NCBI GenBank assembly: GCA_022652655.1
Contig: JALCRQ010000001.1
Location: forward strand, 124,001-188,000
From: Oscillibacter sp.
GTDB lineage: Bacteria > Bacillota > Clostridia > Oscillospirales > Oscillospiraceae
Direction: 5' to 3'
Length of the DNA stretch: 64,000 nucleotides
Shown: positions 10,922 to 16,534 of the stretch, one piece after another
Layout: each line of letters starts with the position of its first letter
Position numbering within the stretch: position 1 is the stretch's first letter
Program-made: the position numbers and the translations under genes
The notes under the pieces: generated by a model
Database searches by the model: none
Told to the model about the DNA's origin: nothing
What the model saw: only the letters and a program-made list of their open reading frames with translations

Positions 10922-13210
10922 TTATTTCTTGCAGAGCTCCTCTGGGGACGGGGTGTCGTCCTGCGGCTTGGCTTCCGGAGCCTGGGGCGCTTTGCCGGCG
11001 CCCTTTTTCCGCCCCAGCGCCGCCTTGAGGCCGCCTGCGGGCTTCTTCCGTCCGGCGGCTTCCAGGAAGCTGCCGGGGCAGGCGGGGGCGGCGGTGCCTG
11101 CTTCCGGGGCGGCGGGCTGCTTTTTCGCCCTGACGCGCTCCGGCTTCGGCGTTCTCCAGTACCGGCTGGTGTGGGCAAACACCGGCTCGCAGACGCACAG
11201 CACGGAGGGGAGGATGAAGATGCTGACCACCGCGGAGATCAGCGCGCCCCGGGCCAGCATGGTGCAGATGGAGCCGATGATCTCAATGTCGGAGATGATG
11301 CTGACGCCCATGGTGGCGCAGAACAGCACCAGGGAGCTGGTGAGGATGGAGGGATCGGCGGTGGTGGCGGCGATCTCAATGGCCTCCTCCCGGGTTTTCC
11401 CTGCCTGCAGCTCCTCCCGGAAGCGGCTGGTCATCAAAATCGCGTAGTCCACCGTGGCGCCCAGCTGGATGCAGCCGATAACGGTGGGGGACACGAAGGG
11501 AATGACGGTGCCGGTAAAGTACGGGATTCCCTGGTTGATGAAGATGGCCAGTTCAATGGTGGACACCAGCGCGATGGGGATCGTGAGGGACTGAAAGACA
11601 ATGGCGATAATCAGGAAAATCGCCGCAATGGAGATGTAGTTGGTGACCTTGAAGTCTACGGCGGAGGTCTTGATCAAATCGTTGGTCAGGGCGGCCTCGC
11701 CGGTGATAAGGGCCTTGGAATCATAGGATTTGACCAGCTTGGTGAGCTTGTCGAGCTGCGTTGCCACCTGGGTGGTGGCCGTGTTGTAGCTGGTGTTCAC
11801 CATCATCATCTGATACCCGCCCTGCTTGAGCATGTTTTTGACCTCGTCCGGGATGAAGAAGTCCGGAATACCCGTGCCGATGAGGGAGTGGTAGGAGACG
11901 ACGGAGGTGACGCCGTCCAGATCCTTTATCTGGTTTTCCAGGTCGTTCATATCCGTGGAGGAGACGTCGTCCCGCAGGAGGATGAAGTGGGAGGAGGCCA
12001 TGTCGAAGTCGCTTTTGAGCTTGTCGTTGGCTACGATGGAGGGGAGATTCTGGGGCAGAGACTCATCCAGTTTGTAGTAGACGCTGGTCATGTTCTGGGC
12101 AAAGGAGAAGGGAATGAACAGCAGCAGGAACAGCACCACAAACCGCTTGCGGCGGTGAATGATTCCGCGGTTCATGCGGGTGGTGTCGGGGATCAGCGTC
12201 TTGTGGAGATGCTTGGTGATCTGCTTATCGAAAAGCAGCAGTACGGAGGGAAGCACAAGGATCACGCACAGTACGCCGATGGCCACGCCCTTGGCCATGA
12301 CGATGCCGATGTCCCGGCCCAGCGTCAGCTGCATGAAGCACAGCGCCACAAATCCGGCGATGGTGGTCAGGCTGCTGCCGGAGAGGGAGGTAAAGGCTGC
12401 CGCGATGGATGCCGCCATGGCGTCCCGCTTGTCGTCGTAATGCTCCCGTTCCTCCACATACCTTCGGTAGAGGAAGATGGAGTAGTCCATGGTGACACCC
12501 AGCTGCAGGACACCCGCAATGGCTTTCGTAATATAGGAGATCTGCCCCATAAAGAGGTTGGTGCCAAAGTTGTAGAGCACAGCCAGGCCGATGCACAGCA
12601 GAAACGCCGCCGGCAGCACCGTGGATTCCAGGGTCAGCAGCATGGCTGCCAGCGAAAGGGCCACGGCCAGCCCTACATAGACGGGCAGCTCCCGGTCCAC
12701 CAGATCCTTGGTGTCCTTGATGACGACGGAGAAGCCCGCGAGAAAGCACTGCTTGTTGCACAGGGAGCGGATGTCCCGGATGGCGTGCATGGTCTCGTCC
12801 GAGGCGCCGGCCTGGCTGTACTGGATAATCATCATGGTGGCCTTGCCGGAGTAAAACATGTCGCGCATATTGGCGGGGATAAAGTCCGTGGGGATCTGAA
12901 TACCCACCAGATTGGAGATCCATACGGCGTGGCTGACGCCGGGGACGTCCTCAATCTGCTCCAGCAGCCGGTTGGTGTAGTCCGCCGGCATATCCTCCAC
13001 CACCAGCATGCTGGTGGCGGCCATCTGGAACGGTTCCTCCAGCAGTTTTTCACCCTGGGAGGACTCCAGATCCTCCGGGAGGTAGGTCAGAATATCATAG
13101 TTGATACGGGTGGAGAGAGAGGCCAGAATCGACGGAATCAGCAGCAAGAGGGCGATAGCCACCACCAGCCTGGGCTTCCGGGTCAGGCCGTGGGCAATTT
13201 TTTTTATCAC
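10922..13210 (-). CDS. RND/MMPL superfamily exporter
   Basis: The 762-aa protein has the two-fold MMPL/SSD layout: TM1, an extracellular domain of about 140 residues, five TM segments, then TM7 after RRKRFVVLFLLLFIPF, a second extracellular domain and five more TM segments. QLGVTMDYSIFLYRRY (first half) and QLGATVDYAILMTSRF (second half) are the paired TM4/TM10 motifs with the proton-relay aspartates. The C-terminal 90 residues are a charged, Ala/Pro/Lys-rich cytoplasmic tail. It is predicted to export a lipid or peptide using the proton gradient. It follows the secreted coiled-coil gene by 42 bp and shares its promoter. Confidence 0.88.
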   Translation of the reverse strand: MIKKIAHGLTRKPRLVVAIALLLLIPSILASLSTRINYDILTYLPEDLESSQGEKLLEEPFQMAATSMLVVEDMPADYTNRLLEQIEDVPGVSHAVWISNLVGIQIPTDFIPANMRDMFYSGKATMMIIQYSQAGASDETMHAIRDIRSLCNKQCFLAGFSVVIKDTKDLVDRELPVYVGLAVALSLAAMLLTLESTVLPAAFLLCIGLAVLYNFGTNLFMGQISYITKAIAGVLQLGVTMDYSIFLYRRYVEEREHYDDKRDAMAASIAAAFTSLSGSSLTTIAGFVALCFMQLTLGRDIGIVMAKGVAIGVLCVILVLPSVLLLFDKQITKHLHKTLIPDTTRMNRGIIHRRKRFVVLFLLLFIPFSFAQNMTSVYYKLDESLPQNLPSIVANDKLKSDFDMASSHFILLRDDVSSTDMNDLENQIKDLDGVTSVVSYHSLIGTGIPDFFIPDEVKNMLKQGGYQMMMVNTSYNTATTQVATQLDKLTKLVKSYDSKALITGEAALTNDLIKTSAVDFKVTNYISIAAIFLIIAIVFQSLTIPIALVSTIELAIFINQGIPYFTGTVIPFVSPTVIGCIQLGATVDYAILMTSRFREELQAGKTREEAIEIAATTADPSILTSSLVLFCATMGVSIISDIEIIGSICTMLARGALISAVVSIFILPSVLCVCEPVFAHTSRYWRTPKPERVRAKKQPAAPEAGTAAPACPGSFLEAAGRKKPAGGLKAALGRKKGAGKAPQAPEAKPQDDTPSPEELCKK

Positions 13211-13252: not shown

Positions 13253-15724
13253 TTAATGCCGGAAAATACCGGTTATGGCCTGCCCAATGTGCTTAAAGAG
13301 GTTGGCGACGCGGCTCCAGAAGGTGCCCTGGTCGGCGGCTTTTTCTTTCTGGGCGGCCGTGTCCTCATCCGGCAGCTTGATCTCCTGGGAGCGGATCAGA
13401 ATCTGCACACTCTGGGGAGAGCCGTTCTGCTGGGAGGTCAGGGACACCGCCTGGGCGGTGGAATCCATGTTCAGCAGGTTGTCGACGTCGCCGGTATGGT
13501 CGTTCCACTCGTCCCGGATGATGCTGCTGATGTTGTTCTTGGCGCTGCGGATGTCGTCGGTGGTGTCGATGCTGGCGGCCGCCTTGCGCAGGGTGGAGGA
13601 CAGCCCGCTCAGCGTTTTCTTGGTGCCGGAGTCCAGCTGGGCGCCGCTCTTTTTGGCCAGCGCCTCAAAGGAGGAGAGAAAGCCCCTGGTGTCGCTCACG
13701 GTGGAGGTCAGGGAGGAGACAATGGTCTTGGTGTCCTCCAGAGTGGCCTTGAGATCCGGCACGTAGCGGTTCACCGTGTCGTCCAGCGCCTGCACCTGAT
13801 CCAGCAGTGTGCTGGAGGTTTTCAGCGCCTGATCCGCCACGTCGATGAGAGAGTCCAGATCGTCCATGGTGTCGCCGGCCAGCCGGCTGAGCTTGGTGAG
13901 ATCCTTGGAAAGACCGTCGCTGCCCATGACGCTGCACAGGTCGCTGAGATTGGCCAGCAGTCCGTCTCCGGTGTTGGAGGCGGACAGCGCCCGGAGCTTT
14001 TCCAGCTGCTGCGCGTTGGCCGCGTAGGTTTTCTTATTTCCCAGCACCTCACTGAGATTGGAACCGGTGGAGTTGACGTCCTGCATCATCTGCACGCCGG
14101 TAATGAACTGTTCCTCGCTCATGGTGCCCGCGCCGCAGACCGTCCCGTAGACGGCCTTGAAGATCTGGGCCTTGCCCCAGTTGGCCGCCTGCTCCTGGGA
14201 GGGTGCGGAGGCCAGTCCCGCCAGGGTGGCGAGGCCCTGGGCCTGGGTGTGGATGGCGGTCAGCTCATCGGCCGTTAGGGCGCTGCCCTTGGTGTTGGTC
14301 TCCTGAATAATCAGCGTGGCCTCGATAAAGCCTGTGAGATCCAGTTCTTTGCCCTGTCCCACGGCCTCGTATGTATTGTGCAGGCCCTTGGCCTGTTCCG
14401 TATTCGCCCGGAGCTCATCCGGCGTCAGGCCGTTGACGGTGACCCAGTCGCCGTGGAGCTGAATATCCAGATCCTTCATGGAGCTACGCAGCGCCGTGAT
14501 GCTGCTGCGCAGGCTGTCGGCATGCTGCCCCATTTTCTCCAGATCCTCCTGGAGATCGCCGTCGTCGTCGGTGGTGCCGGTGAGCTTTTTGACGTCCTTC
14601 ATATCGTCCTGGAGATAACCCAGATATTTCCGGGTGTCAGAGATCTGATCCTTCAGGCTGACGGCGGACTTGGTCACGGCGGTGAGATCGTCCGACACAT
14701 CCGTCACCGCCTGGGAGGCGGCGTCCAGATGGCCGGGCAGCGTGGCCAGGGAGGCGTTCAGGCTGCCCAGATCGCCGATGACCTTGTCGGCCTCACCGTA
14801 GACCGCGCCCTTGCCGGCGGAGATGGTGCCCCGGGCCTCGTTGAGCTCATCCAGGCCCCTGGCGGTATCCCGCAGGCTGCCGGTCATGTTGTCCAGGGAG
14901 TTGAGGAAGGTGTCCAGGCTGCCGTCCAGCTTGTCGTAATCGCTTTCAATATCGGCCTTCTTGTCCTTGAGGTCGGCGATCTGATCCAGCTGCTTCAGCG
15001 TGGCCGGCACCATTAAATAGGTAATGCCGTCAAACTGAAAGGAGTCGGCGCCCACCTCAATGGTGAAGTGCTGCTCCTCACCGGGCAGAACCACAAAGAG
15101 CACCATCCGGAGGTTGCCAACCAGCTGCACCTGGGCGCCCTCCGCCTTCAGGGACAGGATGTCGTCCTGATTGAAAAGGGCCATAGCCTCCAGAGTGTAG
15201 TTGTTTTTGGAGTAGTCGCTGGCGGCGGTATTGGGGACAATGTCCAGATTGATCTGCACCACGCCGGTCTTCCCGGCCAGCTCCTCCGCCTTGGTGGGCA
15301 CACCGTTGAGCTTGTAGCTCATGGAGATCGTCCAGGGCAGGGCGGTAAAGGGCTGGGAGGTCTTGCCCTCAAAATAGAAGTGGTCCGGCGCGTTCTTGCC
15401 GAAGTCGAACGTGGTGGCGCCGCCCGCCGTAACGGGCTTGGTGCCGTCCGTCAGGTTGTTGACGGAGTCATAGGTGCCGTAGTCCGTCAGCTTGTCGGCG
15501 CCGTTGAGGGCGTAGCTTTTGACCACGCTGCCGTTGGTCAGGTTGCCGTAGTAATCCAGCGTCGCGTAGTAGGCCTCGTCGAACGTGGGGGTTACGCCGT
15601 TGCCGATCTTCGCGGCGGCGGCGCCCGGCACCATCGTCAAAGACAGGGCGGCAGCGCAGGCCAAAGCCAGGGTGCGGGCCCAGAGCGTGCGGGAGTTCCG
15701 TCCGCCGGTGCAGAAGCGTTTCAT
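13253..15724 (-). CDS. Secreted coiled-coil partner of the MMPL exporter (YhgE/Pip-like heptad protein)
   Basis: The 823-aa protein has a signal peptide (hydrophobic core ALACAAALSLTMV, cleavage near GAAAA), a beta-rich N-terminal domain of about 240 residues, then about 500 residues of heptad-rich helices with many DLxxL and SDTxxxL segments, and an amphipathic C-terminus ending FKHIGQAITGIFRH. The helical style recalls the extracytoplasmic part of YhgE/Pip proteins, which often pair with MMPL exporters, but the flanking membrane domains are missing. I placed the start at 15724, 8 nt after GGAGG; the track ATG at 15739 overlaps that site. It is the first gene of the operon, under TetR-type control. 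Confidence 0.75.
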   Translation of the reverse strand: MKRFCTGGRNSRTLWARTLALACAAALSLTMVPGAAAAKIGNGVTPTFDEAYYATLDYYGNLTNGSVVKSYALNGADKLTDYGTYDSVNNLTDGTKPVTAGGATTFDFGKNAPDHFYFEGKTSQPFTALPWTISMSYKLNGVPTKAEELAGKTGVVQINLDIVPNTAASDYSKNNYTLEAMALFNQDDILSLKAEGAQVQLVGNLRMVLFVVLPGEEQHFTIEVGADSFQFDGITYLMVPATLKQLDQIADLKDKKADIESDYDKLDGSLDTFLNSLDNMTGSLRDTARGLDELNEARGTISAGKGAVYGEADKVIGDLGSLNASLATLPGHLDAASQAVTDVSDDLTAVTKSAVSLKDQISDTRKYLGYLQDDMKDVKKLTGTTDDDGDLQEDLEKMGQHADSLRSSITALRSSMKDLDIQLHGDWVTVNGLTPDELRANTEQAKGLHNTYEAVGQGKELDLTGFIEATLIIQETNTKGSALTADELTAIHTQAQGLATLAGLASAPSQEQAANWGKAQIFKAVYGTVCGAGTMSEEQFITGVQMMQDVNSTGSNLSEVLGNKKTYAANAQQLEKLRALSASNTGDGLLANLSDLCSVMGSDGLSKDLTKLSRLAGDTMDDLDSLIDVADQALKTSSTLLDQVQALDDTVNRYVPDLKATLEDTKTIVSSLTSTVSDTRGFLSSFEALAKKSGAQLDSGTKKTLSGLSSTLRKAAASIDTTDDIRSAKNNISSIIRDEWNDHTGDVDNLLNMDSTAQAVSLTSQQNGSPQSVQILIRSQEIKLPDEDTAAQKEKAADQGTFWSRVANLFKHIGQAITGIFRH

Positions 15725-15783
15725 AAATCTTTCCTCCATTGCTGCATAAAGTTAATTGACAAAAGTTTATTATTAGTTTATTG

Positions 15784-15833
15784 TTGATTTATTGAACGAA
15801 GTTGATTATAATGCAGGCAGATGAAAAAATCAA
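15784..15833. promoter_or_regulatory. Symmetric divergent promoters sharing a -10 box
   Basis: TTGATT (15784-15789) pairs with TATAAT (15807-15812) at 17 bp for rightward transcription. AATCAA (15828-15833, read TTGATT on the minus strand) pairs with TATAAT on the minus strand (15805-15810), also at 17 bp. The layout TTGATT-N15-ATTATAAT-N15-AATCAA is symmetric about 15808.5. A TetR protein bound here would block both the regulator gene and the exporter operon. Confidence 0.75.
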
Positions 15834-15911
15834 TCGACACATTGAGAAGAATGTAGCGTTTTTTACGAAGAATTTACGCCCGGCATGTCCGGGCGCCGGA
15901 GAGGAGACAGT

Positions 15912-16490
15912 ATGCTCAGTCATTCGGATGACCGGCGGGCCAGAAGGTCCCGGCGGCTTTTAAAAGAAGGTTTGTCGGAGCTGCTGCAGGAAAGACAGTT
16001 TTCGCAGATTTCCGTGCGGGACATTACCAACCGCATGGATCTGAACCGCGGTACCTTTTACCTGCACTATTCGGACACATACGACCTGCTGCAGGATTTA
16101 GAGAACGACGTGCTCCGGGATATCCAGGAGATGATCGATGCCCACCGCGGAGAGACGAACGGCGGCAGTCTGCGGCCGATTTTTGAGCCGCTGCTGCGAT
16201 ATGTGGAGGAACATCACACCCTTTGCGAGGCCCTGTTTCTGAACAACGCCAACAGCAATTTTCTCGATCGGGTGCAGGGGCTGATCCGGGACAACGGCGG
16301 CGCGATTATCCGCGGCCGCTGGCCGGACGCCACGGATGAGCAGGCCGCGTATCTGATGGGCTTTCTGGCCTTCGGCCTCATCGGCCTCATCAAGATGTGG
16401 TTCGATCTGGATCGGAAAACGCCGGAGAGTGAACTGCTGGACAGGATGGATCGGCTCAGCGCGCATGCGGCGCAGATATTGATGGCATGA
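15912..16490 (+). CDS. TetR/AcrR-family regulator of the exporter operon
   Basis: The 192-aa protein has the TetR helix-turn-helix at residues 25-60 (ISVRDITNRMDLNRGTFYLHYSDTYDLL) and an all-helical ligand domain of the TetR_C_8 sort, with the conserved C-terminal FLAFGLIGLIKMWFD segment. ATG 15912 has GAGAGGAG just before it; the track start at 15885 has no Shine-Dalgarno. It is divergent from, and shares a symmetric promoter with, the coiled-coil/MMPL operon, so it is most likely its ligand-responsive repressor. Confidence 0.9.
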   Translation: MLSHSDDRRARRSRRLLKEGLSELLQERQFSQISVRDITNRMDLNRGTFYLHYSDTYDLLQDLENDVLRDIQEMIDAHRGETNGGSLRPIFEPLLRYVEEHHTLCEALFLNNANSNFLDRVQGLIRDNGGAIIRGRWPDATDEQAAYLMGFLAFGLIGLIKMWFDLDRKTPESELLDRMDRLSAHAAQILMA

Positions 16491-16534
16491 AAAAAGCCTG
16501 TCCGACGGTCTGCCGGACAGGCTTTTTTCATGCC
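16484..16534 (+). terminator. Strong intrinsic terminator overlapping the tetR stop codon
   Basis: GGCATGAAAAAAGCCTGTCCG and its exact complement (16514-16534) form a 21-bp stem with a 9-nt loop. The inner GC stem is followed by TTTTTT. Symmetric, so probably bidirectional. Confidence 0.9.

Follow-up and report, generated by a model that had tools for sequence, protein, structure and literature searches.

We are fairly confident that the DNA between the tetR gene and the exporter operon of this Oscillibacter sp. holds a bidirectional sigma-70-type promoter driving both, most likely repressed jointly by TetR through phased palindromes. A single predicted -10, reading TATAAT on both strands, would have a -35 box 17 bp off on each side. 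RNA polymerase would bind in one orientation or the other and transcribe tetR rightwards or the accessory–MMPL operon leftwards, from starts lying about 21 bp apart.

Re-reading the letters of the window –the whole 64,000-nucleotide stretch of DNA that was analysed– placed TTGATT-N15-ATTATAAT-N15-AATCAA at exactly 15784-15833, between the TetR-family gene on the plus strand and the exporter operon on the minus strand. A whole-genome pattern search retrieved one match in the 1.8 Mb assembly. The shared -10, ATTATAAT at 15805-15812, contains TATAAT on the plus strand at 15807-15812 and TATAAT on the minus strand at 15805-15810. The tetR-ward -35 box is TTGATT at 15784-15789 (plus strand), and the exporter-ward one is AATCAA at 15828-15833, which reads TTGATT on the minus strand. 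Both spacers are 17 bp, and each -35 box has four of the six consensus positions. The -10 region is thus legible on both strands, as in the Warman/Grainger definition of a bidirectional sigma-70 promoter. The sequence-only reading had proposed two overlapping divergent promoters with a common -10, directed toward tetR and the exporter operon, and this stood: the boxes are exact and their geometry is conserved.

From the positions of the boxes, the predicted transcription start of tetR is 15819 (plus strand, 7 bp past the -10, with a conserved CA at 15818-15819) and that of the exporter is 15798 (minus strand, 7 bp past the minus-strand -10). The alternative exporter start, 15797, is a G in this genome. 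We infer from the sequence that both promoters are active. A consensus scan of the intergenic region displayed no further minus-strand promoter match. A second promoter-like site on the plus strand (TTGACA at 15756, TATTGT at 15784) was rejected: its TTGACA lies within a predicted operator (O1, see below) and is not conserved.

To the right, tetR (15912-16490, plus strand) encodes 192 aa with TetR_N (PF00440, 25.1 bits vs. a cut-off of 24) and TetR_C_8 (PF14278, 44.8 bits vs. 26.1) domains, and the nearest solved relatives of the protein are DhaS-type regulators. It has a Shine-Dalgarno sequence, AGAGGAG, at 15900-15906, and a consensus scan gave a terminator-like hairpin 3' of the gene at 16507-16530 (plus strand). 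The predicted tetR leader also contains, just ahead of the ribosome-binding site, a perfect G+C-rich hairpin (CGCCCGG-CATGT-CCGGGCG, 15877-15895) without a T run, which includes an alternative ATG at 15885. To the left, the first gene of the operon encodes an exported coiled-coil accessory protein (13253-15724, minus strand), for which family searches gave no confident match. Its annotated reading frame begins at 15739, and the start at 15724, behind GGAGGAAAG, is probably the likelier one. The second gene (10922-13210, minus strand) encodes an MMPL-family RND transporter (Pfam MMPL, PF03176, E 9.6e-57), whose MMPL domain falls in two stretches and which scores under the NCBIfam subfamily cut-offs. 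The name exporter operon was therefore right, with the accessory gene nearest the promoter and the transporter second.

We searched for the tetR protein in 86 genomes of the genus, whose contigs appear in deposits under the name Oscillibacter, and retrieved 34 loci with tetR divergent from the same accessory gene. All 34 presented TTGA[CT]T-N17-TATA[AG]T toward tetR, and TTGA[CT]T was invariant in all aligned orthologues. Moreover, 32 of the 34 (hereafter coupled loci) combined an ATTATA[AG]T -10 with a plus-strand TTGAYT at 17 bp and a minus-strand TTG, the latter at a spacer of 17 bp in 30 loci and of 18 bp in two. No minus-strand TTG was found at spacers 10-16 or 19-23 across the genus loci, and a minor peak at spacer 24 originates from an adjacent GACAA. 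Few columns of the leader are as strongly conserved as this TTG, which is lost in two close tetR orthologues without exporter (L036 and L068). These locus counts overstate independence, because orthologous loci share ancestry. Besides, repressor half-sites can also be read in the plus-strand -35 and in the upstream half of the -10, and some of their conservation may thus have a cause other than promoter function.

The perfect symmetry first read from the sequence is exact in this genome, but the two -35 hexamers are identical in only 6 of the 32 coupled loci, with TTGACC, TTGACT, TTGCGT, TTGTTT, and others on the minus side. Exact -35 symmetry is thus ruled out as a functional feature. As judged across these orthologues, it is partly incidental, and the geometry is not.

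Some relatives differ in gene content around the locus. One genome (G030) has two tetR–exporter modules (G030:C33 and G030:C63, that is L032 and L003), both of them with a coupled promoter. Several relatives (G032:C91, G039:C15, G079:C144, G040:C6, and others) have, directly 3' of the tetR orthologue, an additional diverged TetR-like gene, which is absent here. The same promoter pattern also occurs elsewhere: TTG-N18-ATTATA[AG]T-N18-CAA has about 70 places in 46 of the 86 genus genomes, vs. two for the pattern read backwards. A second conserved 17/17 bidirectional promoter lies between the divergent murC and cca (tRNA nucleotidyltransferase) genes. By sequence, this type of site is present in about 24 genus genomes, and the promoter, murC, and cca were present in all seven loci read (L047-L052 and L055; e.g., L047 position 3001, G072:C9:53328-53377). 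Some 16 other places carry the pattern besides the tetR and murC/cca sites.

Against named genomes, a single-protein query found no relatives, and an alignment query found 342, of which 80 were kept. The loci outside the genus came from Lacrimispora, Hungatella, Eisenbergiella, and other Clostridia. Among the 21 divergent MMPL/accessory loci beyond the genus, the minus-strand TTG spacer peaks at 17 bp (10 loci) and 16 bp (four loci), and in most of them the MMPL gene itself adjoins tetR. The operon order is inverted in L059, L061, L065, L067, L072, and similar loci –MMPL by tetR, accessory gene second– with the shared promoter kept. Overall, the layout is maintained in many gut Clostridia. A complete minus-strand promoter on the shared -10 was found in 46 of 55 divergent loci vs. 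6 of the 22 loci in which no MMPL was detected (Fisher p 4e-6), where the rows are not independent, given their common ancestry, and the 22 are a mixed group, many of which may have other divergent genes, rather than a clean control.

Two genus loci present a split form. In the tree, L009 and L011 group as a well supported clade within the coupled loci, and their intergenic region contains two copies of the promoter region. The promoter scan gave exactly one promoter per direction. The exporter-side copy holds the leftward one (TTGCAT or TTGCTT-17-TATAAT) and reads TCAATT or TCAATC at the position of the tetR-ward TTGATT; the tetR-side copy holds the rightward one (TTGATT-17-TATAAT) and has lost the leftward boxes. 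Read from these sequences, this is the pattern of a duplication followed by complementary loss. Each copy lost the elements of the other direction, which argues that both directions matter. The separate promoters of this clade also show sharing one -10 to be dispensable.

Regarding repression, sequence comparison displayed conserved phased palindromes across the promoters, with the half-site TGTTGATTA in an 18-bp register over 15753-15808. The predicted operator O1 (15753-15772; consensus TAATCAACA-NN-TGTTGATTA) was drawn from the footprint, the consensus match, and the half-site profile. It matches the consensus at 14 of 18 positions in this genome and at 18 of 18 in L008, and is weaker here than in some relatives. 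In the same register, predicted O2 (+18 bp, 15771-15790) overlaps the tetR-ward -35, and its half-site at 15782-15790 scores > 4 bits in every coupled orthologue. Predicted O3 (+36 bp, 15789-15808; half-site 15800-15808) extends over the spacer on the tetR side, one half of the shared -10, and the predicted start of the exporter transcript. A further predicted half-site on the minus strand, TGTCGATTG at 15831-15839, overlaps the exporter-ward -35 by three bases and, together with a TGTC-like sequence at 15852-15855, is part of a weaker inverted repeat. A profile built from O1 alone recovers the half-site at +18, at +36, and on the opposite strand at 15831-15839.

Given that the predicted half-sites extend over one -35, the adjoining spacer, and the shared -10 and reach the other -35 box, TetR probably closes the two promoters at the same time. 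TetR dimers sitting in a row on the palindromes at 15753-15808 and at 15831-15839 would repress their own gene and the exporter jointly. A ligand would then release both directions, and we would expect joint induction. Within its own genome, the O1 consensus with up to three mismatches found no site, and thus we draw no wider regulon.

With predicted starts about 21 bp apart, two RNA polymerases cannot bind together. The sequence-only reading was sound in excluding simultaneous occupancy, and steric exclusion of polymerases at bidirectional promoters has been stated (PMC12825309). It went on to propose that, by the shared promoter alone, tetR and the exporter operon would be expressed in mutual exclusion or in alternation, which we consider unlikely: a bar on binding at the same moment still leaves room for both sides to be expressed. 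Measurements on five bidirectional promoters of E. coli, acrR/acrA among them, found basal activity insufficient for competition and no gain in one direction when its partner was weakened (PMC12825309). Competition was seen only after one direction was much strengthened or activated, and strengthening one -35 did suppress the other direction (PMC12825309). The promoter at hand has two perfect -10 hexamers and a 17-bp spacer on each side, stronger than basal activity needs, which together with the steric exclusion speaks for the proposal. However, the joint predicted repressor sites would lower both directions together, and the separated promoters of the two split relatives speak against alternation as a necessity.

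Perfect -10 boxes and optimal spacers both ways make competition possible when the promoters are derepressed. It is conceivable, if doubtful, that competition between polymerases belongs to the circuit and is the reason for keeping the promoter shared: on exporter induction, leftward polymerase would starve tetR, less repressor would be made, and the induction would be sharpened or latched.

We regard as more improbable still that only the tetR-ward promoter is real, that the left-hand minus-strand boxes are kept for their role as repressor half-sites, and that a promoter elsewhere drives the exporter. The half-site TGTCTATTG/TGTCGATTG does overlap the minus-strand TTG, and the minus-strand -35 is below consensus strength, but the TTG stays at 17 bp in loci where the half-site is lost. 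It is kept despite the loss of the adjacent GACA of the right-hand repeat in, e.g., L006, L007, L010, L013, and L015-L018. Because it remains where the GACA of the possible operator is gone, its role as a -35 box is favoured. Moreover, the last three bases of the minus-strand -35 vary as expected of a -35 box, the intergenic region offers no other minus-strand promoter match, and the exporter-side copy in L009 and L011 retains just the minus-strand promoter.

Returning to the bidirectional promoter, chance symmetry within an intergenic region of 70-80% A+T, where exact -35 identity is not conserved, is refuted for the architecture: TTG-N18-ATTATAAT-N18-CAA occurs once in the window and was absent from all 100 dinucleotide shuffles of it, the spacing is fixed across the 32 coupled loci, and the layout recurs beyond the genus. 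That the two hexamers are identical letter for letter may nevertheless be coincidence. Taking the plus-strand promoter as given, we put the chance, in DNA of the local A+T-rich composition, at about 0.13 for AT ahead of TATAAT and about 0.012 for a correctly placed CAA, jointly about 0.0015; for the exact AATCAA, 0.0006 replaces 0.012. Conservation is a stronger argument than these chance figures, and it says that the predicted promoter is functional.

The closest known layout is E. coli PacrA/acrR (Warman et al. 2026, PMC12825309), where a TetR-family gene is likewise divergent from an RND pump operon, with overlapping promoters and a shared -10 region. AcrR represses both directions there (PMC12825309), and joint repression here is a predicted likeness. 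In contrast to PacrA/acrR, the present pair comprises a TetR_C_8 subfamily regulator and an MMPL-type RND transporter, both -10 hexamers are perfect with both spacers at 17 bp, and no MarA/SoxS-like activator is known here. In Staphylococcus aureus, FarR/FarE is described as a TetR-family regulator divergent from a Gram-positive RND efflux pump with overlapping divergent transcripts (PMC10019231, PMC8844917), much as in our case, where the divergent transcripts are predicted. We compare it by layout and claim no orthology to the present pair; relative to what these two sources describe, the shared -10 is a feature of the present locus.

Bidirectional promoters account for 19% of E. coli RNAs (PMC12825309) and are defined by divergent starts 7-25 bp apart (PMC10268837). 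As summarised in PMC10268837, prokaryotic bidirectional promoters generally have one symmetrical -10, like the one here, and are common between divergent genes. In the commonest configuration given there, the starts lie 18 bp apart and both hexamers cannot be perfect, whereas the predicted distance of about 21 bp found here is less common and permits two perfect TATAAT boxes.

The bidirectional promoter class, recently described and widespread, is thus already known, and so is the TetR/RND pairing on such a promoter from acrR/acrAB. What is new is a sequence-predicted member, together with its conservation inside and outside the genus, its 21-bp configuration, which is less common, and the split form. 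Transcript mapping has so far defined bidirectional promoters in a few species. The invariant geometry across the genus, its recurrence beside divergent MMPL genes, and the split clade are comparative evidence that selection keeps the two-way design. Finally, the split relatives are a natural control for the effect of promoter sharing on the repressor–pump circuit, and if polymerase competition were part of that circuit, the split-promoter lineage would have lost the sharpening or latching behaviour.
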